The notes under the pieces: generated by a model | Database searches by the model: none | The model's input: only the letters and a program-made list of their open reading frames with translations | What the model was told of the DNA's origin: nothing | DNA from: Flavobacterium weaverense | Lineage (GTDB): Bacteria > Bacteroidota > Bacteroidia > Flavobacteriales > Flavobacteriaceae | Reading direction: 5' to 3' | Length of the DNA: 64,000 nucleotides | Assembly (NCBI RefSeq): GCF_003688495.1 | Contig: NZ_REFH01000009.1 | Location: forward strand, 124,001 to 188,000 | In this document: piece after piece, positions 13,958-64,000 of the stretch | Layout of the letters: each line of letters starts with the position of its first letter | Numbering within the stretch: the first letter of the stretch is position 1 | Position numbers and translations under genes: made by a program

Positions 13958-14440
13958 ATGGAAAATTTAGAGAAACACAAAAAGCAAAACATGTATACAA
14001 AATTCATTTCAATGTTAGGACTCTCCTTTCTTGCAATGTATGGTACGATGTATTTAAATACGTACTCAGTAGACCATGTATACTTTAGTCTGACACGATT
14101 TTACATGACTTGCTTAGGAATTTCAGCCATGTCATTAATAATGTTATTTTTTATGATGGGAATGTATCGCAACAAGAAAAAAAACATGCTGATAATATTA
14201 GGAAGTATTCTTTTATTTAGTTCTGCTTTGTTTCTTGTTCGCGTTCAAAAACCAATCGTTGGCGATACGCTTTGGATGAGAGCAATGATTCCACATCATT
14301 CAATCGCAATTTTGACAAGTGAAAGAGCAGATATTAAAGATCCAGAAGTTAAAAAATTAGCAGATGATATTATCACTGCGCAAAAAAAAGAAATTGAACA
14401 AATGAAACTAATGATTAAAAGATTAGAAAATGAAAAATAA
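13958..14440 (+). CDS. DUF305-family membrane protein
   Basis: This 160-residue protein has three hydrophobic segments (about residues 15-32, 45-65 and 75-92), followed by a DUF305-type segment with the typical MRAMIPHHSIAI motif and a Lys/Glu-rich helix (AQKKEIEQMKLMIKRL). DUF305 proteins are ferritin-like helical proteins often encoded beside copper oxidases. Its end overlaps the start of the multicopper oxidase gene by 11 bases, so the two are coupled. A role in copper handling at the membrane is inferred. Confidence 0.85.
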   Translation: MENLEKHKKQNMYTKFISMLGLSFLAMYGTMYLNTYSVDHVYFSLTRFYMTCLGISAMSLIMLFFMMGMYRNKKKNMLIILGSILLFSSALFLVRVQKPIVGDTLWMRAMIPHHSIAILTSERADIKDPEVKKLADDIITAQKKEIEQMKLMIKRLENEK

Positions 14441-16907
14441 TATTATAATCGCTGTTGTTTTTGTACTCTTTATTTCAAATATGCTTTTGGCTCAAAAAGT
14501 CGTCCATTATGATCTTTATGTAAAAGATACTTTAGTGAATTTTTCTGGAAAAGAAAAAAGAGCAATTGCGGTAAATGGACAGATTCCAATGCCAACGCTA
14601 ACTTTTACAGAAGGCGATATTGCTGAAATTGTAGTTCATAACCAATTGAAAGAAAGTACTTCATTACATTGGCACGGATTATATTTGCCAAACAAAGAAG
14701 ATGGTGTTCCGTACTTAACACAAATGCCTATTGAACCTGGTGAAACCTTTACGTATCGTTTTCCAATTGTGCAAAATGGTACACACTGGTACCACAGTCA
14801 TAGTGGAATGCAAGAGCAAATAGGAATGTACGGTTCGTTAATTTTAAAGAAAAAAGCCGACGATAAAACGTTCAGAAAAGGAATTGATGACTTACCACAA
14901 GTTCCTGTAATTTTAAGCGAATGGACGGATTTAAACCCTAAAAACGTACATCGATTATTACACAACGCTTCCGACTATTTTGCCATTAAGAAAGGAACTA
15001 CTCAGAGTTACTCAGAAGCTATAAAGGCAGGACATTTCAAAACGAAACTAACTAACGAGTGGAAACGCATGTTAGCCATGGATGTGAGTGATGTTTATTA
15101 TGACAAATTCTTAATAAATGGTCAAAACGAAAGTCAGCTAACGCAATTTAAAGGCGGAGACAAAGTACGATTACGAATTTCCAATGGTGGTGCATCATCC
15201 TATTTTTGGTTGAATTATGCTGGCGGAAAAATGACTGTAGTGGCTAACGACGGTAATGATGTAGATCCGGTTGAAGTAGATCGATTGATTATCGGAGTTT
15301 CAGAGACCTACGATGTTGTGGTTACCATTCCTGCGGATGACACGTCGTACGAGTTTGTAGCTACTCCAGAAGATAGGACTAAAGCAACTTCTATTTATAT
15401 TGGTAAAGGGATCAAACAATTAGTTAGTCCGATGCCAAAATTGAAATATTTTGAAGGAATGAAGATGATGAACGACATGATGAACATGGACGGTTCAATG
15501 AATGATATGGGAATGGATATGTCGTTGCAAAAAATGGATATGAATACAGTTATGTATCCAGAAATTTCAGGAGTTACTAAAAAGCCGAAAGCTAGAGGTA
15601 GCGATCCGATGAAAATGGACGGAAATATGGATCATTCAAAATCATCTGCTAAATCTTCAAATGAAGCTAAACAGGAAAGTGGAATGAAAATGGATGGAAA
15701 TATGGATCATTCAAAATCATCTGCTAAATCTTCAAATGAAGCAAAACAAGAGAGCGGAATGAAAATGGATGGAAATATGGATCATTCAAAATCATCTGCT
15801 AAATCTTCAAATGAAGCAAAACAAGAGAGCGGAATGAAAATGGATGGAAATATGGATCATTCTAAACACAATATGAGTGCGATGAATTCTGATATTGTAA
15901 CGCTGAATTATTCAATGTTAAAATCACCAACTAAAACTTCTCTTGATAAAAATGCTCCTGTGCGCGAAATTAGGTTTGAACTTACTGGAAACATGAATCG
16001 TTATGTGTGGAGCATGGATAATAAAGTTTTATCTGAGGTGGATAAAATTTTAATTAAAAAAGGGGAGATCGTTCGTATTACTTTATACAATAATTCAATG
16101 ATGCGTCATCCTATGCATTTGCACGGACATGATTTTAGAGTTATAAATGGTCAAGGAGAATATTCCCCTTTGAAAAATGTATTGGATATTATGCCAATGG
16201 AAACAGACGTCATTGAATTTGCTGCAAATGCAGATGGTGATTGGTTCTTCCATTGTCACATTTTATATCACATGATGTCTGGAATGAATCGCGTTTTTAG
16301 TTATGAAAATTCAGAACCAAATCCATATCTACCAAATAAAGCTGCAGCCTATAAAACATTGCAAGCTGAGAGTAATGAAACTCATTTCATGGCTCAAAAT
16401 GATTTTGCTACCAATGGAAACGACGGAATGGCAATGATACAAAATGCGCGCTGGAGTTTCGGAACAGAATGGCGTTTAGGATATAATAAAATGCATGGTT
16501 ATGAAGTAGAAACTCATGTGGGACGATACATTGGAAAGAATCAATGGTTTATGCCATTTGTTGGATTTGATTATCGCTATCGAAAAATGGGAATGGACCA
16601 GCAAGAAACTAATTTATTCAATCAATCCAATACTAAGGACAATCGCAGTTTAGTTAGTTTAGGGTTTGATTACACTTTACCAATGCTCGTTATTTTTCAA
16701 GCAGAAGTATATCACAATGGAGATGTTCGTTTCCAATTAATGAGAGAGGATATTCCAGTTTCAAAAAGATTACGAGCTGGTTTTATGGTTAATACAGACA
16801 AAGAATATATGGCTGATTTACGATACATCATAAATAAAAACATGGGTATTAGAACGCATTACGACAGCGATATGGGATTTGGAGTAGGATTGTCGGTAAA
16901 CTACTAA
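14430..16907 (+). CDS. Multicopper oxidase (CopA-like) fused to a CopB-like outer-membrane domain
   Basis: The 825-residue protein begins with a signal peptide (residues 1-21). The four copper-site motifs of a three-domain multicopper oxidase are present: HWHG, HWYHSHSG, HPMHLHGHDF and HCHILYHMMSGM. A Met/His-rich insert (about residues 345-485) contains a 25-residue unit repeated three times. After the oxidase ends (about residue 635), a further 190 residues of beta-strands follow (FGTEWRLGYNKMHGYE, then DYRYRKMG, ending VGLSVNY), which resemble the barrel of CopB. It probably oxidises Cu(I) at the cell surface or periplasm. The gene overlaps the DUF305 gene and is followed by a terminator. 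Confidence 0.88.
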   Translation: MKNNIIIAVVFVLFISNMLLAQKVVHYDLYVKDTLVNFSGKEKRAIAVNGQIPMPTLTFTEGDIAEIVVHNQLKESTSLHWHGLYLPNKEDGVPYLTQMPIEPGETFTYRFPIVQNGTHWYHSHSGMQEQIGMYGSLILKKKADDKTFRKGIDDLPQVPVILSEWTDLNPKNVHRLLHNASDYFAIKKGTTQSYSEAIKAGHFKTKLTNEWKRMLAMDVSDVYYDKFLINGQNESQLTQFKGGDKVRLRISNGGASSYFWLNYAGGKMTVVANDGNDVDPVEVDRLIIGVSETYDVVVTIPADDTSYEFVATPEDRTKATSIYIGKGIKQLVSPMPKLKYFEGMKMMNDMMNMDGSMNDMGMDMSLQKMDMNTVMYPEISGVTKKPKARGSDPMKMDGNMDHSKSSAKSSNEAKQESGMKMDGNMDHSKSSAKSSNEAKQESGMKMDGNMDHSKSSAKSSNEAKQESGMKMDGNMDHSKHNMSAMNSDIVTLNYSMLKSPTKTSLDKNAPVREIRFELTGNMNRYVWSMDNKVLSEVDKILIKKGEIVRITLYNNSMMRHPMHLHGHDFRVINGQGEYSPLKNVLDIMPMETDVIEFAANADGDWFFHCHILYHMMSGMNRVFSYENSEPNPYLPNKAAAYKTLQAESNETHFMAQNDFATNGNDGMAMIQNARWSFGTEWRLGYNKMHGYEVETHVGRYIGKNQWFMPFVGFDYRYRKMGMDQQETNLFNQSNTKDNRSLVSLGFDYTLPMLVIFQAEVYHNGDVRFQLMREDIPVSKRLRAGFMVNTDKEYMADLRYIINKNMGIRTHYDSDMGFGVGLSVNY
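15609..15863 (+). repeat. 75-bp tandem repeat in the multicopper oxidase gene
   Basis: Three units (15609-15683, 15684-15758, 15759-15833) and the start of a fourth encode a 25-residue repeat that begins MKMDGNMDHSK. Units 2 and 3 are almost identical, unit 1 differs at a few silent sites. This is a slippage-prone, in-frame Met/His tract of the kind that binds copper. Confidence 0.92.
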
Positions 16908-26817: not shown

Positions 26818-27870
26818 CTAAAACTGCAGTAAAACACGTTGAGCTGAAAATCCTGGACCAAAGCTCAACATAAGTCCTCTTGTTCCTTTTTCTGGTTTAT
26901 CATCCATAATACGCTCTAAAACATACAAAACTGTAGCGCTTGACATATTGCCGTAAAGTCTAAGCACTTCTTTAGTGTCATTTATATTTTTGCCCATGTC
27001 AGAAAATAATGCTTCAACCGTTTGAACAATTTTTTTACCACCTGGATGAAAAATTAAATGATCAATTTGCGAAATGTCTAATTGATTTTTTTCCAGAAAA
27101 GGATTAATTATTGCAGGAAAATGCGAAGAAATAGTTTCAGGGACCTCTATATCTAATACCATCTGCAAACCAGAATTAGTAAGTTTGAAACCCATCATGT
27201 CTATGTTGTCATAGAAATGATACATTTCTTCAGCTACTATTTCAGGACCTTCATCATCTTCATGTGAAGAAAGTAATACGCAAGCAGCTCCATCACCAAA
27301 AATAGCGGCGCTTACTATATTAGCCATAGAGTAATCATCTAATTGAAAAGTTGCTGTTGGACTTTCGACAGCAATTACAGCAGCACGTTTACCAGGATTT
27401 GCTTTCAAGAAGTTTTTAGCATAAATTATCCCTGAAACACCTGCAGCACAACCCATCTCAGTAACAGGAAGGCGTACAATATCTTGGCGCAATTTTAATT
27501 TATTAATTAGGTAGGCATCAAGCGAAGGAATCATAATTCCAGTGCAGCTCACCGTGATTATATAATCTAAATCTTCTGGCATCCATTTTGCCTTTGCTAG
27601 CGCTTTTACTAATACTTTTTCACCTAAATCAATTACTTCGCGTACATAAATATCATTTCTTTCTTCAAAAGAAGTTTTGGTAAATACTTCGATTGGATCC
27701 ATTATGGAATATCGTTTATCTACTGCGGCTCCTTCAAATATTTTTTTTACTTTTCGAATGAAGCGCTCGTCTTGACCTTCTAACCACGCGTCAAGAAACG
27801 GAATGATCTCGTCAGTATTTCTAGAATATTTTGGTAACTGTTTTGTTACTGTTTTTATCTTTACACTCAT
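26818..27870 (-). CDS. Type III polyketide synthase (chalcone synthase-like)
   Basis: Started at 27870, the product is 350 residues. The Cys-His-Asn triad is visible: Cys in TEMGCAAGVSG, His in LIFHPGGKK, Asn in YGNMSSATVL. The end GPGFSAQRVLLQF is the usual G.GPG family motif. The ATG overlaps the methyltransferase stop (ATGA), which favours this start over the one at 27888. Homologs condense acyl-CoA or acyl-ACP with malonyl-CoA to resorcinols, pyrones or quinolones; the product here is unknown. Confidence 0.93.
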   Translation of the reverse strand: MSVKIKTVTKQLPKYSRNTDEIIPFLDAWLEGQDERFIRKVKKIFEGAAVDKRYSIMDPIEVFTKTSFEERNDIYVREVIDLGEKVLVKALAKAKWMPEDLDYIITVSCTGIMIPSLDAYLINKLKLRQDIVRLPVTEMGCAAGVSGIIYAKNFLKANPGKRAAVIAVESPTATFQLDDYSMANIVSAAIFGDGAACVLLSSHEDDEGPEIVAEEMYHFYDNIDMMGFKLTNSGLQMVLDIEVPETISSHFPAIINPFLEKNQLDISQIDHLIFHPGGKKIVQTVEALFSDMGKNINDTKEVLRLYGNMSSATVLYVLERIMDDKPEKGTRGLMLSFGPGFSAQRVLLQF

Positions 27871-28580
27871 AATTTTGAAATTATCCATTGGTATCTAAAT
27901 GCCCATTTCCAATGAATTTTATAATGGGTAAAATTTAATTTTTTAGAAAAAGTTACTAATTCTTCTTTTTTAAATCCTCTTAAAATCGAAGTTAGTCCAT
28001 CTTCTCTTGACATATCGTTCAAATTAAAAACAAAGCATAAAGCTTGAAATAACCGGTAAGCGACAGCGCTTCTTTGTAAATCGTTTATAACAATTCCTAT
28101 AGTTGCATTTGAATAAAAAGTTTGTAATAAGTCAACTATTTCGTCATCTTTAAAATGATGTAAAGTCAATGTGCACAATACAATATCATATTTCATTTCG
28201 CGGAATTCTTCATCGAAAATGTCTTGACAACTATAACTAATATTCTTGTAGTTTTCTGATAATTTTATTGCGTGCGATATTGTAAATTTATTTGCATCTA
28301 TTCCTAAAAGTTTAAATTTAATGTTTTTTTCCAAACCAAATTCAGCTAGAGTACGCAGCATATCACCGTTTCCACAACCTATATCTACAATTACAATTTC
28401 TCTATCTTTTGCATCTGCAGGAAGTAAATCTTTCACTCCTTCTAATGTAAGTTTGTTTCCTCCTAAAAGCTGATTGATTTTGGCGATTTTATCTAAAGCA
28501 TCTCTCAAAATTTCACCCTCCATTGCAAAATCGTCCATTATCTCTGGCTCATCAGTTCTATATCTCGTATCTATCGCCAT
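27867..28580 (-). CDS. SAM-dependent methyltransferase of the polyketide operon
   Basis: The 237-residue protein has a class I methyltransferase fold with the glycine-rich motif VIVDIGCGNGDMLRTL near residues 60-75 and a CTLTLHHFKD segment for post-I. It abuts the FAD oxidoreductase (0 bases between coding regions) and overlaps the polyketide synthase start. Such triads (type III PKS, methyltransferase, FAD oxidoreductase) are typical of phenolic lipid or quinone-type pathways; the site of methylation cannot be read from the sequence. Confidence 0.9.
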   Translation of the reverse strand: MAIDTRYRTDEPEIMDDFAMEGEILRDALDKIAKINQLLGGNKLTLEGVKDLLPADAKDREIVIVDIGCGNGDMLRTLAEFGLEKNIKFKLLGIDANKFTISHAIKLSENYKNISYSCQDIFDEEFREMKYDIVLCTLTLHHFKDDEIVDLLQTFYSNATIGIVINDLQRSAVAYRLFQALCFVFNLNDMSREDGLTSILRGFKKEELVTFSKKLNFTHYKIHWKWAFRYQWIISKL

Positions 28581-52851: not shown

Positions 52852-52891
52852 AAAAGCCCTCAACACGATACAAAGTGTTCAGGGCTTTTTT
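52852..52891 (+). terminator. Terminator (first of three related copies)
   Basis: AAGCCCT and AGGGCTT arms with an inner CAACAC and GTGTTC extension form a stem followed by six T. It is 92 bases after the acyl-CoA dehydrogenase stop, and its downstream part begins the duplicated pilin cassette. Confidence 0.85.
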
Positions 52892-52978
52892 GATTTATAA
52901 ATATATGTAAAAAGCTGTGTAGTGATTAAACTACATGCATTTCCATTTTCCACTACAAAGCCATTTGTAAAGCTAACG

Positions 52979-52986
52979 TAGATTTG
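52979..52986 (+). promoter_or_regulatory. -7 promoter box of pilin copy 1 (same in copy 2 at 53744-53751; copy 3 at 54509-54516)
   Basis: TAGATTTG fits TAnnTTTG; copy 3 has TAAATTTG at the same relative place, about 40-60 bases before each ATG. No obvious -33 TTTG at 19-21 bases, though TTTGTAAAG is close by. The box overlaps an earlier in-frame start of the longer ORF, which supports the ATG at 53041. Confidence 0.55.
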
Positions 52987-53040
52987 CAGTGTTCAAAAGG
53001 AACAAATAAAAAAGATATAAAATCCCAAATCTATATTATT

Positions 53041-53598
53041 ATGAAAAAACAAATCGTTATTGCAGCACTAGCTCTTGGAGCATTCGTTTTCGGAACTACA
53101 AATGCACAAGCTCAAACAGGAACCAGTTCTACACCAGTAAGCACTGCAGTAAATATTATTTTATCAGACGTTATTTCAATTGACGCTGGAAGTGTGGCAA
53201 CCGGAGGTTTTGTAAATTTCAATTATAGTACAACAGCAGATTATAACACGGCTAAAAATGAAACGGTAGCAAATAGTTTAAAAATAACTTCATCAAGAAA
53301 TTTTGATGTAAAAGTAAAAGCAGAAGGCGCAAATTTCGTAAACCCTACACATTCAGATGTTATTCCTGTAGATGTTTTACAAGTTAAAGCAGTAACTGGT
53401 GGAACAATGGTTGGAACTTTAAACGATATCACTTTATCTACAGCTGATCAGATATTGGTATCTGACGCAACTTTAGGAGCAGAAAGAACATTAGATATTG
53501 ATTACTCTATTTCTGCAACTAAAGCAAAAACTGTTCTTTTAGGAAAAGCACCTGGAACTTACACTCAAAAAGTAACTTACACGGCAACAGCTTTGTAA
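53041..53598 (+). CDS. Secreted pilin-like protein, copy 1
   Basis: From ATG 53041 the product is 185 residues with a signal peptide (MKKQIVIAALALGAFVFG...NAQAQ). The mature part is a single beta-rich domain: an N-terminal strand with alternating hydrophobics (VSTAVNIILSDVISID), core VNFNYSTTADYNTAKNE, and a C-terminal strand GTYTQKVTYTATAL. The Gly 14 residues from the end and the alternating pattern after it resemble the chaperone-recognition strand of chaperone-usher pilins. DUF4402-type pilin family is my best guess. Paralogs follow at 53806, 54554 and 55245. The same fold forms the end of the adhesin-like gene at 59552. Confidence 0.75.
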   Translation: MKKQIVIAALALGAFVFGTTNAQAQTGTSSTPVSTAVNIILSDVISIDAGSVATGGFVNFNYSTTADYNTAKNETVANSLKITSSRNFDVKVKAEGANFVNPTHSDVIPVDVLQVKAVTGGTMVGTLNDITLSTADQILVSDATLGAERTLDIDYSISATKAKTVLLGKAPGTYTQKVTYTATAL

Positions 53599-53616
53599 TT
53601 CATACTAAAAAAATTC

Positions 53617-53656
53617 AAAAGCCCTAAGCACGATTTAAAGTGTTCAGGGCTTTTTT
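53617..53656 (+). terminator. Terminator of pilin copy 1
   Basis: Stem AAGCCCTAAGCAC with GTGTTCAGGGCTT (one mismatch) and six T, 18 bases after the stop. It separates copy 1 from copy 2. Confidence 0.88.
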
Positions 53657-53805
53657 GATTTATAAATATATGTAAAAAGCTGTGTAGTGATTAAACTACA
53701 TGCATTTCCATTTTCCACTACAAAGCCATTTGTAAAGCTAACGTAGATTTGCAGTGTTCAAAAGGAACAAATAAAAAAGATATAAAATCCCAAATCTATA
53801 TTATT

Positions 53806-54363
53806 ATGAAAAAACAAATCGTTATTGCAGCACTAGCTCTTGGAGCATTCGTTTTCGGAACTACAAATGCACAAGCTCAAACAGGAACCAGTTCTACACC
53901 AGTAAGCACTGCAGTAAATATTATTTTATCAGACGTTATTTCAATTGACGCTGGAAGTGTGGCAACCGGAGGTTTTGTAAATTTCAATTATAGTACAACA
54001 GCAGATTATAACACGGCTAAAAATGAAACGGTAGCAAATAGTTTAAAAATAACTTCATCAAGAAATTTTGATGTAAAAGTAAAAGCAGAAGGCGCAAATT
54101 TCGTAAACCCTACACATTCAGATGTTATTCCTGTAGATGTTTTACAAGTTAAAGCAGTAACTGGTGGAACAATGGTTGGAACTTTAAACGATATCACTTT
54201 ATCTACAGCTGATCAGATATTGGTATCTGACGCAACTTTAGGAGCAGAAAGAACATTAGATATTGATTACTCTATTTCTGCAACTAAAGCAAAAACTGTT
54301 CTTTTAGGAAAAGCACCTGGAACTTACACTCAAAATGTAACTTACACTGCAACAGCTCAGTAA
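53806..54363 (+). CDS. Secreted pilin-like protein, copy 2
   Basis: A 185-residue near-identical copy of the gene at 53041. It differs at the C-terminal strand: Lys to Asn (TQNVTYTATAQ) and the last residue is Gln in place of Leu. The strand is the part expected to contact a chaperone and the next subunit, so the change could alter assembly or mark this copy as a distinct subunit. Promoter and terminator are the same as for copy 1. Confidence 0.75.
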   Translation: MKKQIVIAALALGAFVFGTTNAQAQTGTSSTPVSTAVNIILSDVISIDAGSVATGGFVNFNYSTTADYNTAKNETVANSLKITSSRNFDVKVKAEGANFVNPTHSDVIPVDVLQVKAVTGGTMVGTLNDITLSTADQILVSDATLGAERTLDIDYSISATKAKTVLLGKAPGTYTQNVTYTATAQ

Positions 54364-54381
54364 TTCATACTAAAAAAATTC

Positions 54382-54421
54382 AAAAGCCCTAAGCACGATT
54401 TAAAGTGTTCAGGGCTTTTTT
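54382..54421 (+). terminator. Terminator of pilin copy 2
   Basis: Identical to the copy 1 terminator, 19 bases after the stop; followed by a shared promoter-proximal stretch up to 54464, after which copy 3 diverges. Confidence 0.88.
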
Positions 54422-54553
54422 GATTTATAAATATATGTAAAAAGCTGTGTAGTGATTAAACTACTTTACTTTACATATTTGACTACAAAAGTATCTTCAA
54501 TGCTAGCATAAATTTGCAATGTTTAAAAGAAACGAAGAGAAATAATAAATTTC

Positions 54554-55099
54554 ATGACAAAACAAATCTTTAATGCTGTACTAATTTTAATAGCATTAAT
54601 TTTAGGAAGTACTAATCTGTTCGCTCAATCAAATGCGACTTCAGTAACTACAACCGTGAATATAATTTTGGCGGAAGTTATTTCTATTGACAATGGAAGC
54701 ATAGCAAATGGCGGAGTAGTAAATTTCAGTTACTTTACAGCTAGCGATTATAATAACACTAAAAATCTAACGATTGAAAATAGTTTAGTGGTGACTTCTT
54801 CAAATAACTTTGATGTAAAAGTAAAAGCAGAAGGAGAAAATTTTATAAGTGAAGCTGGCACTATTCCGGTGGGAGTTTTACAAGTTAAAGCTGTTAGCGG
54901 AGGATCAATGATTGGCACGCTAAATGATATTACTTTGTCAACAACTGAACAAATATTAGTTGGAAATGCAAATCCAGGAGCTCAGAGGACTTTAAGCATC
55001 GATTACTCAATTCCCGCAAATAAAGCTCGAACTGAACTTTTAGGTAAAGCACCTGGAACGTATACACAAAGAGTAAAGTTTACGGCAACCGCTTTATAA
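54554..55099 (+). CDS. Secreted pilin-like protein, diverged paralog
   Basis: The 181-residue product has a signal peptide (MTKQIFNAVLILIALILG...FAQ) and the same beta domain as the two upstream genes: VNIILAEVISIDNGSIANGG, VNFSYFTASDYNNTKN, and a C-terminal strand GTYTQRVKFTATAL. It is clearly paralogous but diverged. No strong terminator is visible after its stop, so the next genes may belong to its transcript. Confidence 0.78.
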   Translation: MTKQIFNAVLILIALILGSTNLFAQSNATSVTTTVNIILAEVISIDNGSIANGGVVNFSYFTASDYNNTKNLTIENSLVVTSSNNFDVKVKAEGENFISEAGTIPVGVLQVKAVSGGSMIGTLNDITLSTTEQILVGNANPGAQRTLSIDYSIPANKARTELLGKAPGTYTQRVKFTATAL

Positions 55100-55244
55100 T
55101 CAGATACCATTCATAGTTTTATGATATCGAATTAGGAGAATATTTAAATAATGTCTATTTTGCTACGATTATATATTTACAATTAAATTATTTAAGAAAA
55201 ATATAATTGAAATTTGTAGAAACACCCCAAACTACTAACCTATT

Positions 55245-55841
55245 ATGAAAAACATTTTGAAAACCTACCTACAAAGATTTCAAGAAAGTTTGTTTTTGCT
55301 TTTACCATTTAAATCTTCAACTTTAAGGGTATTATTTATTAGTGCATTAATTTTAACTACATCTTTTGCTAAAGCGCAGGAAGTAGCAACTAAAGTTAAT
55401 ATTACACTAGCAGACGTTTTATCAATTGACTCAGAAAGCGCTGCAAATGGTGGTGCTGTTGATTTTAGATACGAAACTGTTTCAGACTATAACTCTCAAA
55501 AAACAGCTACTGTACCAAAAAGCTTGGTAGTTACTTTCAGCAAAGCTTTTGATGTTAAAGTGAGAGCTAATGGAGAATATTTTGAAAATGGAATTAACCA
55601 AATTCCAATTAATGTTATCACCATACAAAGAAATGAGTCTTCAACGTTGATGGGGAAATCAACTCCCATTATACTTTCGACAACAGATCAAGTTCTTGTA
55701 GGCTCAGCCGCTTTAGGACTTAAACTACAATTAGATTTAGATTATATAATTCCAAAAGCAAAATCATCATCTACTGATATACTAGGTAAACCAGCAGGAA
55801 GTTATACTCAAACGGTTACTTACACTGCAAGTGCCTTGTAA
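55245..55841 (+). CDS. Secreted pilin-like protein, fourth paralog
   Basis: The 198-residue product has an N-terminal extension and signal region (LFISALILTTSFAKAQ) and the domain VNITLADVLSIDSESAANGG, VDFRYETVSDYNSQKTA, ending GSYTQTVTYTASAL. Its position 74 bases before the chaperone-like gene, and its divergence from the others, suggest a minor or anchor subunit. It could be the first gene of the assembly operon. Confidence 0.75.
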   Translation: MKNILKTYLQRFQESLFLLLPFKSSTLRVLFISALILTTSFAKAQEVATKVNITLADVLSIDSESAANGGAVDFRYETVSDYNSQKTATVPKSLVVTFSKAFDVKVRANGEYFENGINQIPINVITIQRNESSTLMGKSTPIILSTTDQVLVGSAALGLKLQLDLDYIIPKAKSSSTDILGKPAGSYTQTVTYTASAL

Positions 55842-55914
55842 AACGCATCTTTCAAAAAGTTTTAATTACCTACCTAATAAAACTTTTTAAATAATAATTT
55901 AATCCCAAATCCAA

Positions 55915-56721
55915 ATGTACAATTACTTTAAATTTGTATTAACTTTTATATTTATCCAAGGTTTCGCTTTAGTTGGCTTTTCTCAAGGAGTTTCAATGTC
56001 ACCTACTCGCTTATTTTTTACAGGTAATCCTGGTGAAACAGTAACTCAAAATGTTGTGATTCATAACGGATCTGCAAATGATTACATTTTCAATATAAAT
56101 GTAAAAGACTGGAATCGTGAAGAAGATGGAACTAAAGTCTACTTTGAGCCAGGAATATTAAAACAAACCAATTCGGCTTGGATTTCTACTCTTGAAAAAA
56201 ATATTAATTTACCTGCTAAGTCGACGCAGGAAGTTTTAGTTACAATGAAAATTCCAGCAAATGCATCGACAGTAGAAATGACAAATTCTATGCTATTTTT
56301 TACACAAATAGGAAAGCAAAAAGATGAGCTGAAATTAGATAAGGGAATAGGTATTATAGCCTTATTTGAATTTGGACTTCACGTTTACTACACACCTGCC
56401 GCTAGCAATTCAGTCAGCGTAGATATCATTAGTATTGAAGCGACGCCAAAACAGGTTGATAATTCTCAAGCGGTAGCAATCCGCCTTTTTAACGACGGTT
56501 CTGTAGTAAATGATGCTGCAGTAGAGTTAGAACTAACAAACATGGATTCTGGTGAGGAAATTAAATTGACTCCGATAAATCTATCGATGATGCCAGGTAC
56601 TTATCAAAATATCACACACAAGCTACCAGAAAATATTAAAGGAAAATATGCAGGAGTAATCATTGTTAAAATGGCAGGTTCGAATGATTTACGAGTTGGT
56701 GAAAAATCTTTTGAATTTTAA
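55915..56721 (+). CDS. Periplasmic Ig-fold chaperone-like protein
   Basis: The 268-residue product has a signal peptide (to about residue 24, GFSQ). Two Ig-like halves follow: VSMSPTRLFFTGNPGETVTQ opens the first, which ends with FTQIGKQKDELK; the second starts near IEATPKQVDNSQAVAIRL and ends VGEKSFEF. The pattern of an Arg after SPT and N-x-s strands is that of PapD-like and DUF916-like proteins. Between four pilin-like genes and an outer-membrane barrel it most likely serves as subunit chaperone. Nine bases separate it from the next gene. Confidence 0.75.
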   Translation: MYNYFKFVLTFIFIQGFALVGFSQGVSMSPTRLFFTGNPGETVTQNVVIHNGSANDYIFNINVKDWNREEDGTKVYFEPGILKQTNSAWISTLEKNINLPAKSTQEVLVTMKIPANASTVEMTNSMLFFTQIGKQKDELKLDKGIGIIALFEFGLHVYYTPAASNSVSVDIISIEATPKQVDNSQAVAIRLFNDGSVVNDAAVELELTNMDSGEEIKLTPINLSMMPGTYQNITHKLPENIKGKYAGVIIVKMAGSNDLRVGEKSFEF

Positions 56722-56730
56722 GTTTTATTA

Positions 56731-59541
56731 TTGAAATCTTCAATTAACATATTATCTTTTCTACAAAGAAAGGTTGCATTGCTACTGTTTATATTCTTTA
56801 TGTTTTCTACAAATATCTTTGGGCAAACCTCAGATAATGAGGTTAAGTTTTATTTTGAAGCTGACACTATTAAAGTCACACAAGGCAAAACTTTTACTAA
56901 TTTTTTGTACATAAAAAATTTATCGAAAACGAAACTAAATATTAGCAGTTTGATAGCTAGTGCAAATTACCCTGGAATTTTACTTATGCCTAAAACTCCA
57001 TCAGTTATTGGCATTGGTGAAACTGAAAAAGTATTTGTTAAGTTTATCGCTAGTACTCCATTTATGAAGATGAGCTCGAACGAAATTAAATTTGAACTTT
57101 CTTATTCGTTAGATGATGAAAAGAGCAAAACTATAGGAGCAAGTTTTCAAAGAAAAATAAATGAGGAAGAAGATGTACTAATTTATCCAATCACTCAAGA
57201 GAATTACATTAATCCCTTGATTCCAGAATCTACAATTTCATTATTTGTCGAAAATACGGGTTATGCAAGTCGATCCGTACGATTGCAATTTGATTCAGAC
57301 TTCGCAGGTCTAAAACTTTTAGAACGTCAAATAATTTTAAATTTAGAAGGGAAGGAAAAAAAAACTGTTGAATTAAAACTTTCAATGCGCCAGCAAAATG
57401 TATATTTTCCAAACTACAATATACAAGTTAAAGTCACTGATGTTAACAAAAACAAAATAATTAATATCAATACCATTAAGATAATGGTTCTCTCTAATAG
57501 CACTCAATTGATGCGTAATTCAAACATTGCCACTGACAAAAACTATATGGAGTTAGCTTATAATCAACTGAGCAGTGGTTTTGATTACACTCAGTTAAAA
57601 GCAAATACCCAACTTAATTTAGGAAACGAAGTTCGAGGCACTTTTAATACTGCGATCGATTATTACAACAGTGAAAATAAATTTAGCATATATGACACCT
57701 ATCTTGATATAGAACGTAAAGGGTCCTCAATCAGATTAGGAAATATTTATGGCAACGATTATGATTACTCCGTTTCTGGTCGTGGAGCTAAAGTTTTAGC
57801 AAATTTAGGTTCTAAAAGAAATTTAGAAGTTTTAGCTGTTGACAACAACTACAATATATTTAGTACTTACACTAACGGATTTGAAAGTTCAAAAACTATC
57901 GGAGCAAAATACAGCTTTGGTGATTACAACAGCTTTAATGGTAAAATATCTTATTTATTCGATCATGATCCTAGACTATCGATTGATTCGCAAATAATGC
58001 ACTATAGCTCTGGATTTCAAATCAATAAAAATCATAATTTCAGAATTGAAACCGGACTAAGTCATGAGCAAAGTGCGTTAAACGACAATAAAGAAGCTGG
58101 TTTTATGAGTAGTATTAATTATGACTATAGGGATAAGCGTTGGGATTTAAATTCACTTACTAACTTTGCGTCAAGTAATTATGTAGGAATGAACAGAGGT
58201 TCAGTCAATACCTATCAGAACATTGGATATCGATTTACAGAACAACAGCGCTTGTTTTTACAATATCAAAATTCACAGTCTAAACCAAAATATCTTTACA
58301 ATCAAGTGGTGACAGACAATAATGGACAAGTATTATTTGATTCCTACAATTTCTACAGTACGCATGGATTAAAGTTAGGATATCAAATTTCCAAAAATAA
58401 TTGGAATTTTACTTTTAGCCCGCAAGTAGAAAAACAAAAGAATATTAACAACCTTATCAATGAAGGAATACTATCATATCGATTTCGCACAGATATTGGT
58501 ACTGCAATTAAATCTCATCGAATTAATTTAACTGCGGAGTACTCCTACTCTGAAGCATCAAAAACGCTTTATAAATTTTCTAGTTTTAAAACAACTTTAA
58601 GCTACAGTTTTAAAAACTTTTCTTTGAATGGTACAGCGCAGTTTAATCCTAATACTATTTATGATTTAAATTATTTTTCAGAAAGCAGTGATAATTTTAT
58701 AAACTATAGTGCTTATTCCTCGTATAACTTTTCGGCTTTACAAAATAAAATCAAAGGTTATCTATCAGCAGGACTTAATTATTCTGAACTTTACAATAAT
58801 GTAAATCAGAATGCTAACGCAAATATCGAATATAAAATAACAGAAAGTTGGGCCGCTACAGGTTATGCTAACTATTCCAATTATCAATCTTTACTTGCAA
58901 ATAGTTTTAAAGGAAATAATTATCAATACAAGGTTGGTATTAAGAAATACTTTTCGAATGGAGGTTCGGGTGGCTATCACACTATTAGTTTACAATTCTT
59001 TCAAGATAAAAACTTAAATGGTATATTAGATAAAGGAGAAAATTTAATGGCAGAAGAAATTATCAAGTTGGATAGTTACGTTGCTAAAACCGATAAGAAT
59101 GGCAAAGTAAGTTTTAGAAATGTACCGAAAGGAACTTATAAGTTACGTGTGAATGAAAGCGTGGGCGTTCGCTTAATGCAGGATCCTGAAATCATAGTTG
59201 GTAAAAATGTAAATTTAAAAATAGGATTAGGAAAAAATAATAAGGTAAAAGGTAAACTGGTTGAAGTGAAGCAAACTTATGATGATTTAGAATCAGATGT
59301 TCGTGGAATTGTAGTTTATGCAGAAGATGATAAAGGACAAAAAACGTACACCGCGGTCGACCAAAATAATGAATTTGAATTCTACCTTAAAAATGGATCA
59401 TACCGCATTTTTATAGAAAACAATAAATACGAGTATGTTAAATCATCTCAAACAATACAATTAAACAATGCTGACTATTCTGAAACGCTTCTTTTCAATT
59501 ACGTGAAAAAAGACAGACAGATCAAAGTCAAGAAATTTTAA
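56731..59541 (+). CDS. Outer-membrane usher-like barrel protein
   Basis: The 936-residue product starts at TTG (56731); no ATG lies early enough to keep the signal peptide (LLLFIFFMFSTNIFGQ). Two Ig-like domains follow (about residues 35-260), then about 450 residues of amphipathic beta-strands with aromatic ends (residues 265-740), a probable outer-membrane barrel. Two C-terminal beta-sandwich domains close it; the first has FQDKNLNGILDKGENLMAEE, an SdrD-like calcium or B-domain motif, and a GTYKLRV end. This layout (N-domain, large barrel, C-domains) parallels the FimD usher. Similarity in sequence to FimD is not apparent, so the homology is by architecture and context. Confidence 0.72.
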   Translation: MKSSINILSFLQRKVALLLFIFFMFSTNIFGQTSDNEVKFYFEADTIKVTQGKTFTNFLYIKNLSKTKLNISSLIASANYPGILLMPKTPSVIGIGETEKVFVKFIASTPFMKMSSNEIKFELSYSLDDEKSKTIGASFQRKINEEEDVLIYPITQENYINPLIPESTISLFVENTGYASRSVRLQFDSDFAGLKLLERQIILNLEGKEKKTVELKLSMRQQNVYFPNYNIQVKVTDVNKNKIININTIKIMVLSNSTQLMRNSNIATDKNYMELAYNQLSSGFDYTQLKANTQLNLGNEVRGTFNTAIDYYNSENKFSIYDTYLDIERKGSSIRLGNIYGNDYDYSVSGRGAKVLANLGSKRNLEVLAVDNNYNIFSTYTNGFESSKTIGAKYSFGDYNSFNGKISYLFDHDPRLSIDSQIMHYSSGFQINKNHNFRIETGLSHEQSALNDNKEAGFMSSINYDYRDKRWDLNSLTNFASSNYVGMNRGSVNTYQNIGYRFTEQQRLFLQYQNSQSKPKYLYNQVVTDNNGQVLFDSYNFYSTHGLKLGYQISKNNWNFTFSPQVEKQKNINNLINEGILSYRFRTDIGTAIKSHRINLTAEYSYSEASKTLYKFSSFKTTLSYSFKNFSLNGTAQFNPNTIYDLNYFSESSDNFINYSAYSSYNFSALQNKIKGYLSAGLNYSELYNNVNQNANANIEYKITESWAATGYANYSNYQSLLANSFKGNNYQYKVGIKKYFSNGGSGGYHTISLQFFQDKNLNGILDKGENLMAEEIIKLDSYVAKTDKNGKVSFRNVPKGTYKLRVNESVGVRLMQDPEIIVGKNVNLKIGLGKNNKVKGKLVEVKQTYDDLESDVRGIVVYAEDDKGQKTYTAVDQNNEFEFYLKNGSYRIFIENNKYEYVKSSQTIQLNNADYSETLLFNYVKKDRQIKVKKF

Positions 59542-59551
59542 ATCGTACGAT

Positions 59552-60982
59552 ATGAAACTACTATATACATTATTTTTCGCACTATTTTTTTTACTGACAG
59601 GTACAGAGTCTGTTTCTGCGCAAGATGTTAGAATCACAATTCCAGGAAACTCCATTTTTAATCGATCTGAGTTTGTAACAGTTCAAAATGTAATGAATAG
59701 CCAAGGTAATAAGTCATGGAGAGTGGGCGGAATAGACCCAAAAATTAGGTCTGATTCAGGTGAAAATTTTAAGCATACTTCCTCTGGTGAATTTAAATTA
59801 CCTACATCTGTTCTTCAATGGCAACTAGCGAAGATTGGAAACCAAACTCCACCATTTGATTCTGGGGACGTGTTACCGGGATATAAATGGTTTACAAATT
59901 CTTTTCAAACATGGTATCAACCTAGTGGTGGCTCTAAGTATAATCAAGGAGATATAAATTTTAGTTTTCGAGTACCATCATTACAAATTGAGGGCAATAC
60001 CTTTCATGCAGGGCAGTATAAACTAGAGGTAGTGCAGGATTATGGTCGTAGCGGTTGGTATGCAATCCAATTTAGTCCTGATAATTTTAATGTTTTTATT
60101 TCCATTCCCGAAGAGATTAAGTGGATTTCAGGTGCTGACAGTAAAAATGTTACTATTAACTCATTAAATGATTTCCGCTCTGGTTCACAACTTTCTGTAA
60201 ATCTTGGTACAATGGAAGTTGGCCATACGGTTGATTTTACTTTAGCAGCAAAGAGTAGAAAAAAGGAATTTACATTTAAACCATTAGATGGAAAAGATGG
60301 AAAATTTACTATTTCAACAGTTAAATTGGGTAGTAGCAACCCAAAAATTAATTCTAAATTAATTACTGAGAAGTTTAATAATCACTCTGCAGAGGGTGCT
60401 TTTAAAGTGGAGCGTGGCAATAGAAGCGTTTTCGACTTAAATCTAACAATTAGTTCAGAAGATTTTAAAAATGACTTTTTCGAAGCTGGAACTTATGCTT
60501 TTCAAATTGTGCTTGATGCCAAAAGTGCTAATAAAGTTAACTCAGAAAAAGAAATTGAAGTTACATTAGTGGTTCCTGCATTATCAGAAATTTCGGTTCC
60601 TGGCGGAAACTCTGAGGTGAATTTTACATTCAATACGATGCAGCAATATAATGAAGGACAAAGCAAAACTGTTCCTAATCAGTTGCGGGTTTCTAATAAT
60701 GAAAAATATGAACTGTATGTGAAATCTGCTGCAAATTACTTTAATTCTAATGGTGTGCAATCGACTTTAAATTCATCTATATTGCAAATTAGTGTTGAAG
60801 GAAACACACAAAAACAAACACTCACTACTACTCCTAAAAAATTAATAGATAAAGGAAATCCTGCAATCGACAAGAATTTAAATGTTATCTATACAATATC
60901 ACCAGAGTCAGCGCAGTCGTTAGTTCAGCAGCAAAAGAAAATATACGGTATTAATATAATTTACAGCTTTACAGCTTTATAA
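59552..60982 (+). CDS. Two-domain adhesin-like protein with C-terminal pilin domain
   Basis: The 476-residue product has a signal peptide (residues 1-24, ending SAQ). The N-terminal part (about residues 25-340) is a beta-rich domain with no family match. The C-terminal 130 residues match the pilin fold of the upstream subunits: VNFTFNTMQQYNEGQSKTV corresponds to VNFNYSTTADYNTAKNETV, and the end IYGINIIYSFTAL to the subunit C-terminal strand. A binding domain joined to a pilin domain is the plan of tip adhesins such as FimH. It follows the barrel gene by 10 bases. Confidence 0.75.
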   Translation: MKLLYTLFFALFFLLTGTESVSAQDVRITIPGNSIFNRSEFVTVQNVMNSQGNKSWRVGGIDPKIRSDSGENFKHTSSGEFKLPTSVLQWQLAKIGNQTPPFDSGDVLPGYKWFTNSFQTWYQPSGGSKYNQGDINFSFRVPSLQIEGNTFHAGQYKLEVVQDYGRSGWYAIQFSPDNFNVFISIPEEIKWISGADSKNVTINSLNDFRSGSQLSVNLGTMEVGHTVDFTLAAKSRKKEFTFKPLDGKDGKFTISTVKLGSSNPKINSKLITEKFNNHSAEGAFKVERGNRSVFDLNLTISSEDFKNDFFEAGTYAFQIVLDAKSANKVNSEKEIEVTLVVPALSEISVPGGNSEVNFTFNTMQQYNEGQSKTVPNQLRVSNNEKYELYVKSAANYFNSNGVQSTLNSSILQISVEGNTQKQTLTTTPKKLIDKGNPAIDKNLNVIYTISPESAQSLVQQQKKIYGINIIYSFTAL

Positions 60983-60998: not shown

Positions 60999-63743
60999 AT
61001 GGAAAAAATTGAAAATCCACATAACGCCGCTAAAAAAGACACTACATATAAATTAAGCATATTTGAAAACCGCTATGGTGAAGCATTTGATTTTTTGATT
61101 TTTTCAATCGTTAGTATGACTGACGTAGCCTTATGTACTGTGACGCTTTTTAGCGATGACAAAGCGTATGTAATAGCGACAAATGACAATTCCATTGAGA
61201 AAATTTGGCCGTTTGATAAACAATTCGATCAAATTTCAATTGATGATAATGAAATAGAAACTGCTCATGAAGCAAGTGCTTTAGATGTGAAATTCAGCAC
61301 TGCTTTTCCAATAACGGATTCTAATAATGTTATTATAGGAAGCTTAAATATTTTTGATACTAAAGAGCGTATTCTTACGCCAGAAAACAAAATCTATCTT
61401 GACAAATCAATCCAACAGCTAAATCGTTGGGTTAGAATCAAAGAAAAAGAGCAACGTTTGACTAATCAAGATCATTTATTTGAGTTTGCAGATGACTTAA
61501 TTGGAATATTTTCGCTTGACGGCAAATTTATAAAAATCAATCCCGCTTTCGAAAAAACACTTGGTTGGGAAAGCGAAGAGTTTATGGAAGCGAATTTTAT
61601 AGATTTTGTATTTGAAGAGGATAAACAAGAAACCTTAAATGCAATGAGCACTCTTAACAAGGGTGAACGGATTCAAAATTTCACTAATCGTTATCTTACG
61701 AAATCCAACACAATTAAATGGATTGAATGGACTTGCTCGTCTGATCTTGACTTAAACGTCGCATATACTATAGGAAGAGATGTTACTGAGTATGTACAAA
61801 AAGAAAAGTTATTACGTAAAAGTGAATTAAAATTCAGGAAAGTATTCGAAAATATTAGTGGAATATTAAGTGTTTTAGACCTTGATGGAAATTTTATCGA
61901 AGTAAACAAAGCTGGATTAATTGCTTCAGGCTTTTCAGAAGAAGAAATGAGCACTTCATCGCTTTATGATCTTATCGATCCAATAAGACATAATAGAATA
62001 GAATTCTTCTTAAGTGAAATTAAAAAACAAGGTTACGCAGCCGGTGAAATGGAAATCATCAAAAAAGATGGTGAGCAATCAACCTGGTACTTTATGTGTT
62101 CTCTAGATGAAGATCAGAACGGTAATAAGCAAATTTTCTCTAACGTAATTGATATCACGGAACGCAAGAGAATCGATGAAGAACTTAGAAAAGCAAAGGA
62201 AGATGCCGAAGAAGCATATTTAGCTAAATCTGAGTTTGTTGCTAATATGAGTCACGAAATACGTACGCCATTGAATGGAATAATTGGTTTCACTGAGCTT
62301 GCTTTAGGAACTAATTTAGATGACACTCAGAGACAATATTTAGAAATTATCAATCAATCTGGTATCTCACTGTACAGCATAATAAATGACATATTGGATT
62401 TTTCGAAAATGGAAAAGAACCATATGAAATTAGACATCGACAAAATTGATGTAGAAGAAGTAATCTCTGAAGCGTTCAATATTGTCTCTTACAGTGCCAA
62501 TAAAAAAGGTCTTGAAATGCTAATCGATATTGACCAAACCGCACCAAGATATATTTGGGCAGACGGTATGAGACTCAAGCAAATATTTGTAAACCTCTTA
62601 AGTAATGCACTTAAATTTACTGAAAAAGGAGAAATCAAATTATACGTTAAAGTATTAGACGACTTAGGCGATAGTAGATTAAAAATGCGTTTTGGCGTGC
62701 GTGATACTGGAATAGGGATTCATATTGATAAGCAGCAAGAAATATTTAATGCTTTTTCTCAAGAAGATGCTAGTATTACAAAGCGATTCGGTGGAACAGG
62801 ATTAGGGTTAACAATTTCGAACAAACTTCTAGCATTGTCTGACAGTGCGCTTGAGTTAGAAAGTGAACAAGGCAAAGGAAGTAATTTCTTTTTCGACATT
62901 GATTTCGACACTGAAAAAGAAGAATTTAAAATGGAGCTTGACGGAATAAAAAGCGTTCTAATTGTTGATGATAATGACAACAATAGAATGATTCTTCGTA
63001 GAATGTTAGAAATAAAAGGAATAGCAGTTACAGAAGTTAACAGCGGATTGCAAGCAGTGCTTACAATGATGGAAAAAACCAAGTTTGACGTAATTATCAT
63101 GGACTATCATATGCCTGTTATGGATGGTATTGAGACGATCAGAAAAATTAAAGATTTAAATAAAAATGCTCCTTTTATTGTACTCTATAGCTCTTCTGAC
63201 GATGAAACACTTCAGGAAGCCTGTGAGGAATTAGAAGTAGATAATAGATTGGTAAAGCCAATTAGAATGAACTTAATGTACAAAGTACTTTCTAAACTTA
63301 AAAATGATAGTAAAATTGAGGAAGAAGCTATTGAGATTGAAGAAAAGCAATCTGATGTTATAAAATACGGAGTAACGATATTAGTCGCTGAAGACAATCC
63401 AGTTAATATGTTCTTAACTAAAAGTTATCTGAAAGAATTAATTCCCAATTGTAACATCATTGAAGCTTCTAATGGCGAGGAAGCGGTTGAACAGTTTAAA
63501 AAACAAAGTTTAGATCTTATTTTAATGGACATTAGAATGCCTCAATTGAATGGAATCGATGCAACTTTATTAATACGCAGTTTAGAGAAAGATATCGAGA
63601 TTCCTATAATTGCTTTGACAGCAGGAAGTTTACCCGGTGAAAAAGAAAAATGTGTCCAAGCAGGAATGAATGATTTTTTAGCTAAACCCTTATTAAAATT
63701 AACTTTAGCTACTATGCTAAAAAAGTGGATTGGTAAAGAGTAA
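60999..63743 (+). CDS. Hybrid histidine kinase with PAS domains and two receiver domains
   Basis: The 914-residue cytoplasmic protein has a GAF-like N-terminal region (about residues 20-150), two PAS domains (about 155-395), HisKA with the H-box FVANMSHEIRTPLNGIIGF (His419), an HATPase with the N, G1 and G2 boxes (NLLSNALKFTEKGEI, RDTGIGI, GGTGLGL), and two receivers (VLIVDDNDNNR ... IIMDYHMP and ILVAEDNPVNM ... ILMDIRMP). No membrane spans, so it senses a cytosolic cue. It begins 16 bases after the adhesin stop in the same orientation, so it is likely cotranscribed with the assembly genes. Confidence 0.9.
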   Translation: MEKIENPHNAAKKDTTYKLSIFENRYGEAFDFLIFSIVSMTDVALCTVTLFSDDKAYVIATNDNSIEKIWPFDKQFDQISIDDNEIETAHEASALDVKFSTAFPITDSNNVIIGSLNIFDTKERILTPENKIYLDKSIQQLNRWVRIKEKEQRLTNQDHLFEFADDLIGIFSLDGKFIKINPAFEKTLGWESEEFMEANFIDFVFEEDKQETLNAMSTLNKGERIQNFTNRYLTKSNTIKWIEWTCSSDLDLNVAYTIGRDVTEYVQKEKLLRKSELKFRKVFENISGILSVLDLDGNFIEVNKAGLIASGFSEEEMSTSSLYDLIDPIRHNRIEFFLSEIKKQGYAAGEMEIIKKDGEQSTWYFMCSLDEDQNGNKQIFSNVIDITERKRIDEELRKAKEDAEEAYLAKSEFVANMSHEIRTPLNGIIGFTELALGTNLDDTQRQYLEIINQSGISLYSIINDILDFSKMEKNHMKLDIDKIDVEEVISEAFNIVSYSANKKGLEMLIDIDQTAPRYIWADGMRLKQIFVNLLSNALKFTEKGEIKLYVKVLDDLGDSRLKMRFGVRDTGIGIHIDKQQEIFNAFSQEDASITKRFGGTGLGLTISNKLLALSDSALELESEQGKGSNFFFDIDFDTEKEEFKMELDGIKSVLIVDDNDNNRMILRRMLEIKGIAVTEVNSGLQAVLTMMEKTKFDVIIMDYHMPVMDGIETIRKIKDLNKNAPFIVLYSSSDDETLQEACEELEVDNRLVKPIRMNLMYKVLSKLKNDSKIEEEAIEIEEKQSDVIKYGVTILVAEDNPVNMFLTKSYLKELIPNCNIIEASNGEEAVEQFKKQSLDLILMDIRMPQLNGIDATLLIRSLEKDIEIPIIALTAGSLPGEKEKCVQAGMNDFLAKPLLKLTLATMLKKWIGKE

Positions 63744-63799: not shown

Positions 63800-64000
63800 A
63801 TGATCAATACGCTTGAAGAATTACAACTAGAAAACACAAAACTTAAAAACGAAAATAATCTTTTGACAGGTTGGATTTCTTTGATTTCTCATGATACTAA
63901 GCAAATATTTGGCAATTTAAAATGGATAATCGAAGCTTACGACGATAATATTATTGGTAAAGAAGATCTTTTTAAAATGTTGCCTCAAATTAAAAAAGAC
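63800..64000 (+). CDS. Start of a second sensor kinase-like gene (runs off the right edge)
   Basis: The frame begins MINTLEELQLENTKLKNEN and has SHDTKQIFGNLKWI at residues about 27-40, which resembles a HisKA H-box (SHD...). No signal or membrane segment precedes it. It follows the hybrid kinase by 56 bases in the same direction, so this may be a multi-kinase signalling unit tied to the pilus-like genes. Confidence 0.65.
   Translation, partial: MINTLEELQLENTKLKNENNLLTGWISLISHDTKQIFGNLKWIIEAYDDNIIGKEDLFKMLPQIKKD

Follow-up and report, generated by a model that had tools for sequence, protein, structure and literature searches.

A candidate chaperone-usher-like pilus locus with a predicted plugless outer-membrane barrel in Flavobacterium weaverense and other Bacteroidota

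Can a member of the Bacteroidota build a surface fibre through a chaperone-usher-like pathway? The question is raised by seven genes of Flavobacterium weaverense, all on the + strand of the 64,000-nucleotide stretch analysed here (the window; positions 124,001 to 188,000 of contig NZ_REFH01000009.1, assembly GCF_003688495.1; coordinates below are those of the window). A first-pass annotation had described four pilin-like genes (P1 to P4), a protein of two immunoglobulin-like (Ig) domains (C), a 936-residue outer-membrane barrel protein (U) and a two-domain protein (A) in one direction, and the listing of open reading frames (ORFs) shows all seven where they had been placed. Its proposal of a chaperone-usher-like composition is supported by the fold and the sequence profile of C, the donor pattern and the C-terminal strand of the pilins, the pilin domain of A, and the conservation of the set. 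The locus most likely works as a chaperone-usher pathway, and we put the probability that it encodes such a pathway building a surface fibre at roughly three in four.

P1 (53041..53598) encodes a pilin-like subunit of 185 amino acids with a signal peptide and, judged by eye, Gln as the first mature residue, and matches the pilin profile at E 3.9e-60 in the search of its own genome. The ORF listing begins at TTG 52984; ATG 53041, which fits the signal peptide, was taken as the start. P2 (53806..54363) is a near-identical tandem copy of P1; it differs at 4 of 558 nucleotides, and these lie within the last 28. P3 (54554..55099) and P4 (55245..55841) are further pilin-like subunits matching the pilin profile, and P4 adjoins the gene of the periplasmic chaperone-like protein C (55915..56721, 268 amino acids). 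Downstream are U (56731..59541), the candidate assembly platform, and A (59552..60982, 476 amino acids), a two-part protein resembling a tip adhesin. The intergenic gaps from P1 to A are 207, 190, 145, 73, 9 and 10 nucleotides, P4, C, U and A being closely packed. In the genome of F. weaverense C and U have one match each, and the five pilin-domain matches are all at this locus.

The search for the same gene order, proposed in the first-pass annotation, was run by scanning GTDB contigs with the C alignment; 117 stretches yielded 89 relatives, and 80 were kept. Homologous loci do keep the gene types together: U, A and a pilin accompany C in 74 of these 80 loci, which had been retrieved through C alone. 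In the remaining six (L060, L063, L072, L075, L087 and L129), C lies near a contig end or on a contig of 3-6 kb. The conservation of the gene set is not due to chance.

Searches with U gave lower bounds, as two to four candidates were scored per genome. Within the genus, at least 27 of 398 genomes matched, at 29 places, and 26 of the 28 regions read around these matches (L030-L055, labelled by hand) hold the set; the two dropped (L056 and L057, around L026 and L027) match in the C-terminal domain alone. In a search of 196 genomes, at least 42 matched at E 0.001, 15 of them near full length by reading and many others in the C-terminal domains only. In a search of 392 genomes, at least 21 matched at E 1e-6, with 12 long or paired matches (families f1, f5, f17, f22 and f24) and nine short matches in the C-terminal domain. 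Ten places hand-picked from long U matches (L168-L177) all contain C and P, and eight of them a protein labelled as A or a long pilin-domain protein, one of just 151 amino acids. One survey tells against a chaperone-usher-like pathway: a search with the single U sequence, in about one genome per genus of the family, gave at least one match in 199 genomes, its own genome only.

According to the record titles, the set is present in Flavobacterium, Aequorivita, Bizionia, Psychroflexus, Arenibacter, many Chryseobacterium, Kaistella, Myroides, Paenimyroides, Mesonia, Pedobacter, Mucilaginibacter and a Chitinophagaceae bin. Two main gene orders were found, P-C-U-A (59 loci with C-U-A) and P-C-A-U. 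The second mostly lies behind an ORF of about 280-305 amino acids, an AraC-type regulator in the three cases tested; judged by eye, the ORF ahead of P-C-A-U in locus L134 appears to be a different one. U is on the opposite strand in Mucilaginibacter and in two of the three Pedobacter loci. Several genomes of genus g203 (e.g. G611:C1) carry two full-length U loci: one close to that of the window, at about 1,440 bits, and a distant one at about 400 bits. L168 and L176, both of the distant type, were read. The U, A and P genes of Chryseobacterium sp. E1 (L080) are in short pieces and U of L115 is in two, reflecting either decay or sequencing errors.

Protein C was modelled through its orthologue from Flavobacterium sinopsychrotolerans (locus L058; 82% identical), in one chain fused with the neighbouring pilin, the orthologue of P4 (predicted local distance difference test, pLDDT, 85.7; predicted template modelling score, pTM, 0.56). 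The model shows two Ig domains in the arrangement of the PapD/FimC chaperones, and VIA-align superposed both domains on FimC (3bwu_C) with Z 14.4 and a root-mean-square deviation (rmsd) of 3.1 Å over 186 of 200 residues. The VIA-align list is headed by the Enterococcus faecium WxLIP and continues with FimC, SfaE, YadV, Caf1M, SafB, CupB2 and CsuC. In the Foldseek list of C, unrelated Ig-fold chains (ciliary proteins, transglutaminases) are interspersed among the chaperones.

The sequence profile of C is homologous to those of the PapD/FimC chaperones. With signal peptides included, the match between the profile of 39 C proteins and that of 11 E. coli K-12 chaperones reached 96.8% (E 2.6e-10), and without them hhalign still gave 94.0% (E 1.4e-7, 195 columns), compared with E 0.29 for reversed chaperones and 0.12 for pilins. 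The Arg of the FimC motif TRVIY pairs with Arg32 of C, a position that is basic in 39 of 39 members (R in 33, K in 6). The Lys of the FimC motif RIKLYY pairs with His156, a position with H in 19, K in 18 and Q in 2 of the 39 members (K or H in 37), the window protein having His. By predicted fold and by signal-peptide-free profile, C is homologous to the pilus chaperones of the FimC type.

Other results for C count against the chaperone-usher-like reading. The PDB profile search returned only two WxLIP sequences under E 0.05 (best 2.8e-4) and no pilus chaperone up to E 10, and among the solved structures it is the Gram-positive WxLIP that comes closest to C. The two commonest Pfam matches over the 39 members were fn3_5 (22) and Motile_Sperm (21), next to WxLIP_PGBD in 18 (best E 1.4e-7); PapD_N was found in 4 of 39 (best E 0.01) and had no match to C of the window. 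In the fused model, intended as a check on strand donation, the C strand is not placed in the pilin, and the G1 segment is of low confidence and not a strand.

Might C then act as a structural partner in the manner of WxLIP, remaining attached to P at the cell surface, rather than as a chaperone that is released? WxLIP heads the matches of C in Foldseek (E 3.4e-11) and in VIA-align (Z 16.0) as well as in the PDB profile search, and in the excerpt of PMC10599100 an AlphaFold2-predicted WxLIP strand inserts into WxL, to which WxLIP is proposed to stay bound in Gram-positive bacteria. However, C superposes less tightly on WxLIP (rmsd 6.5 Å over 226 residues) than on FimC. In addition, the same excerpt gives WxLIP a C-terminal transmembrane helix, whereas the last element of the modelled C is a strand, which no helix follows. 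We know of no outer-membrane barrel beside WxL genes, although the literature was not searched for one. A permanently bound partner is therefore quite improbable in our judgement. Given the fold and profile matches to both groups, C is related to WxLIP as well as to the pilus chaperones.

The pilins agree with a donor-strand mechanism. The alignment comprises 40 sequences hand-picked from the 82 left by the redundancy filter plus the window. Mature residues 7, 9 and 11 are hydrophobic in 40, 38 and 40 of the 40 pilins, compared with two of 40 each at residues 6 and 8. This pattern is close to Val8, Leu10 and Ile12 of the archaic subunit CsuA/B, donor residues whose joint mutation abolishes polymers according to the excerpt of PMC4654587. 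In the model, block-mean pLDDT of the P part is 87-97 at residues 31-150 and the N-terminus is disordered; mature residues 1-12 are below 50, as would be expected of a free donor strand. Near the C-terminus, mature residues 147, 149 and 151 are hydrophobic in all 40 sequences. P1 ends in GTYTQKVTYTATAL, with Gly 14 residues from the end. The first-pass annotation had noted this Gly and the lack of the usual penultimate aromatic residue, and both features extend to the family, the Gly being kept in 35 of the 40 aligned pilins and a penultimate aromatic present in none.

A possesses a pilin domain at its C-terminus (residues 331-476; 60542..60979), which matched the pilin profile with an i-Evalue of 2.9e-21 in the hidden Markov model search and at 99.6% (E 1.6e-23) in hhalign. 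Its N-terminal part starts with a conserved domain in which Trp and other aromatic residues are abundant. The protein is conserved throughout, with a mean column identity of 57% in 14 proteins.

Three results for the pilins argue in the opposite direction. The alternation of the donor pattern is imperfect, residues 10 and 12 each being hydrophobic in 19 of 40 sequences. The 40 pilins gave scattered single Pfam matches with E above 0.01, none of them convincing, and the P profile showed no similarity to E. coli pilins without signal peptides (E 0.13). A match of 50.8% between P and the E. coli pilins was discarded, as it was due to the signal peptide and disappeared on its removal. The PDB profile searches with P and with A matched no pilus protein, and the fold lists of the fused model were filled by C matches.

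The pilins also bear on whether the locus encodes surface fibres of type V (FimA/Mfa1) or of the type IX secretion system (T9SS), the likeness of C, U and P to a chaperone-usher set being superficial. The phylum uses such systems, and the excerpt of PMC5954841 treats the fimbriae of Porphyromonas gingivalis as type V and describes them as lacking chaperones and ushers. In the alignment, however, the residue at +1 after the AxA-like site is Gln in 40 of 40 pilins and never Cys, so that the subunits are not lipoprotein-like, and the P proteins and A of the window match no Pfam family at E 10. Such a system is very improbable here. T9SS cargo was likewise considered and rejected.

The candidate assembly platform is the part of the locus that deviates most clearly from described systems. 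In the excerpt of PMC4356140, ushers are described as 24-strand pores with a plug located in the β6-β7 loop, one domain at the N-terminus and two at the C-terminus. The model of U (pLDDT 83.3, pTM 0.52) has an N-terminal region of two Ig-like domains (residues 38-253; 56842..57489), seen in the model strands and in a weak similarity to C, followed by a barrel (residues 272-740; 57544..58950). The barrel has 26 predicted strands, counted by hand from the DSSP listing with the 4-residue strand 375-378 omitted. Two C-terminal beta-sandwich or transthyretin-like domains (residues 757-926; 58999..59508), as in ushers, are supported by the model and by Pfam matches just above cut-off to CarboxypepD_reg (33.5 bits) and SdrD_B (30.3 bits). 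They are also reached by the VIA-align alignment with FimD (9fy9_D), which pairs residues 267-925 of the model with residues 136-833 of that chain.

The first-pass annotation had suggested that U is a distant or separately evolved usher. In favour of this, FimD and PapC chains take the first nine places in the Foldseek list of U (best E 3.7e-14 over 859 columns), ahead of ciliary proteins and BtuB. The N-terminal region of U resembles both domains of C without signal peptides (E 2.4e-4 over 194 columns; reversed 0.092), which we regard as a lead only; the value was 1.5e-8 before the signal peptides were removed. Against E. coli chaperones, the same region gave E 5.1e-4, and 0.017 without signal peptides.

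Other results for U speak against an usher. Template modelling (TM) scores to the nine top ushers are 0.21-0.32. In VIA-align, MtrB, whose barrel has 26 strands, came first (Z 21.0, rmsd 4.5 Å, 414 residues). FimD (Z 16.7, rmsd 11.4 Å, 448 residues) is not set apart there from unrelated porins, OccK10 having Z 16.3 and OccK3 16.1, with BtuB and PapC at 15.9 and LptD at 15.4. That other families are missing from the fold lists does not count as evidence. The predicted number of strands differs from the 24 of ushers, and two Ig-like domains take the place of the FimD-type N-terminal domain, which the model does not contain. The first-pass annotation had counted a plain porin with neither plug nor chaperone interface as an outcome speaking against its reading, and the missing plug is indeed seen, strands 6 and 7 of the model being just 4 residues apart. 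The stretch from the GRG motif to Asp413 measures 58-63 residues in 56 of 56 sequences and 60-63 in 27 of 27 aligned sequences, a near-constant length that leaves no room for a plug; the U alignment kept 55 of 75 full-length proteins after the redundancy filter.

The lack of obvious sequence similarity to FimD, also noted in the first pass, held in the profile comparisons. U against E. coli ushers without signal peptides gave E 0.031, not beyond the controls (reversed ushers 0.07, TonB receptors 0.12), which again tells against an usher, and the N-terminal profile against E. coli ushers gave E 0.66. A pairing of the LGN...GRG strands of U with LGD...FRG of FimD scored no better than controls and was not used as evidence. 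The usher model PF00577 had no match in the own genome and none above cut-off in 296 Bacteroidota genomes (three weak matches below it), the E. coli control being positive. The PDB profile search with U found no pilus protein; its best match was NOMO2 (E 1.4e-9), with the best stretch at profile positions 765-885, in the sandwich domains. By the features tested in the model and in the profiles, U is not a member of the FimD usher family, although it probably works like an usher. Given the missing plug, the missing sequence link and the rank of FimD among porins, the evidence thus supports a locus that works in the manner of a chaperone-usher system, but not the placement of U in the FimD family. 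A plain porin was rejected because of the conserved partners and the Ig and sandwich domains.

U could instead be a dedicated export pore, with C keeping P and A export-competent and the products being single surface adhesins or short complexes rather than a pilus. The plugless barrel, which fits the wide MtrB-like barrel best, would suit such a pore, and a single P gene was found in 5 of the 59 loci with more than 6 kb upstream of C. Nevertheless, 46 of these 59 loci have at least three tandem P genes, which points to polymerisation, as do the conserved N-terminal donor pattern and the two-part A ending in a pilin domain. We therefore regard export without a pilus as unlikely.

In the chaperone-usher-like pathway that we favour, the P subunits, C, U and A, which have signal peptides, would be exported by Sec. 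C would then lend its G1 strand to each P, or to the pilin domain of A, and so hold it in the periplasm, and U, a large barrel in the outer membrane, would receive the chaperone-subunit complexes. Docking may be carried out by the N-terminal Ig-like pair of U in place of the FimD N-terminal domain. At U, the donor strand of an incoming P would displace the C strand in the preceding subunit, giving a fibre with A at the tip. Since U has no plug, gating must be achieved in another way, perhaps, as a speculation, through the Ig-like pair or the pair of C-terminal domains.

Tentatively, and with more doubt than confidence, we propose that the Bacteroidota own a deep branch of the chaperone-usher idea. 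The plug-free barrel of about 26 strands would carry a tethered chaperone-like Ig pair replacing the FimD N-terminal domain, and C would link the pilus chaperones of Gram-negative bacteria to WxLIP of Gram-positive bacteria. Because of that link, donor-strand chaperoning may have existed before the classical, alternative and archaic classes arose, the barrel having been recruited separately.

The first genes of the locus also inform on its transcription. P1 and P2 lie in tandem copies of a 765-bp unit that differ by 8 mismatches; 4 of these fall within the 558-bp genes, near their 3' ends. Over the pilin unit (52852-54381), the mismatches are confined to near its two ends, a distribution that points to gene conversion or to a duplication that took place very recently. 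Terminator-like hairpins with a U run were predicted on the + strand between an acyl-CoA oxidase-like gene and P1 (52852..52889; RNA fold -19.7 kcal/mol, z -6.4), between P1 and P2 (53617..53657) and between P2 and P3 (54382..54422; both -19.3 kcal/mol, z -5.7), and the three match one another. A TAnnTTTG box, which we take to be the Bacteroidota -7 element, is located upstream of P1, P2 and P3, and such boxes are also found inside genes there. From these hairpins and boxes, the first pilin genes are probably separate transcripts and not a single operon.

The conserved set extends beyond position 60982, with a hybrid sensor kinase (60999..63743, + strand; PAS, HisKA, HATPase_c and two receivers in Pfam), a 244-amino-acid HATPase_c protein and a LuxR-type response regulator. 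The HATPase_c gene starts at 63800 (63800..64000 in the window, + strand) and runs past the window (3801-4535 of L142), and the response regulator of 212 amino acids lies outside the window after it (L142 4542-5180), both identified by Pfam. At E 1e-20, matches were found in 59 C-U-A loci for the response regulator in 57, for the HATPase protein in 53 and for the kinase in 39, a count that may take in other kinases. Judging from this conserved proximity, the three proteins probably switch the locus.

Elsewhere in the window, three adjacent genes (3974-9398) match SngA, SngB and SngC of PADLOC (E 1.8e-44, 4.2e-167 and 2.1e-211) and represent a candidate Shango-type defence system. The window also encodes a multicopper oxidase (14430-16907) with an internal tandem repeat that, by eye, is rich in Met, His and Lys. 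A type III polyketide synthase with chalcone/stilbene synthase domains (26818-27888) adjoins KAS-like, methyltransferase-like and oxidoreductase-like genes, named by eye, and these are possibly a small biosynthetic cluster.

How does the locus relate to the described distribution of chaperone-usher systems? For the archaic class, the excerpt of PMC4654587 names proteobacteria, Cyanobacteria and Deinococcus-Thermus; it places the classical and alternate classes in beta- and gamma-proteobacteria. PMC10104325, likewise in excerpt, gives a similar range for archaic pili, and the chaperone-usher pathway is omitted from the survey in the excerpted part of PMC4793230. Among the matches listed in the open-access literature, searched by title and start of abstract with subscription papers and preprints outside its scope, there was no chaperone-usher locus of Bacteroidota. 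If our interpretation is true, the locus in Flavobacterium, Chryseobacterium, Myroides, Arenibacter and Pedobacter extends the pathway to another phylum and explains a set of proteins without family assignment. It also poses the question of how a pilus platform is closed without a plug, and the link between C and WxLIP would make the origin of pilus chaperones testable.

Similar to the classical pili (Fim, Pap), the locus has a chaperone-like protein with FimC-like fold and profile, a pilin C-terminal strand with the Gly described above, a tip-like protein of two parts with a pilin domain at its end, and a barrel with C-terminal beta-sandwich domains. It differs from them in the missing penultimate aromatic residue and in U, which has two modelled strands more and lacks both the plug and the FimD-type N-terminal domain. 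With the archaic pili (Csu, CupE), whose pilins were compared through their published description, it shares a hydrophobic donor pattern at about residues 7-12 of the subunit N-terminus, and CsuC is among the closest folds to C. Unlike in archaic pili, the C family largely keeps a basic pair of classical type (R/K, K/H), said in the excerpt of PMC4654587 to be absent from archaic chaperones, and U has no usher match at the sequence level.

C resembles WxLIP, the DUF916-DUF3324 pair of the WxL/WxLIP clusters, in profile and fold; unlike in these clusters, C has no transmembrane helix and an outer-membrane barrel is present. The MtrB-type barrels provide the best superposition of the U barrel. 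In contrast to them, U possesses Ig-like domains before the barrel and sandwich domains after it, and is accompanied by conserved neighbours of pilus type.

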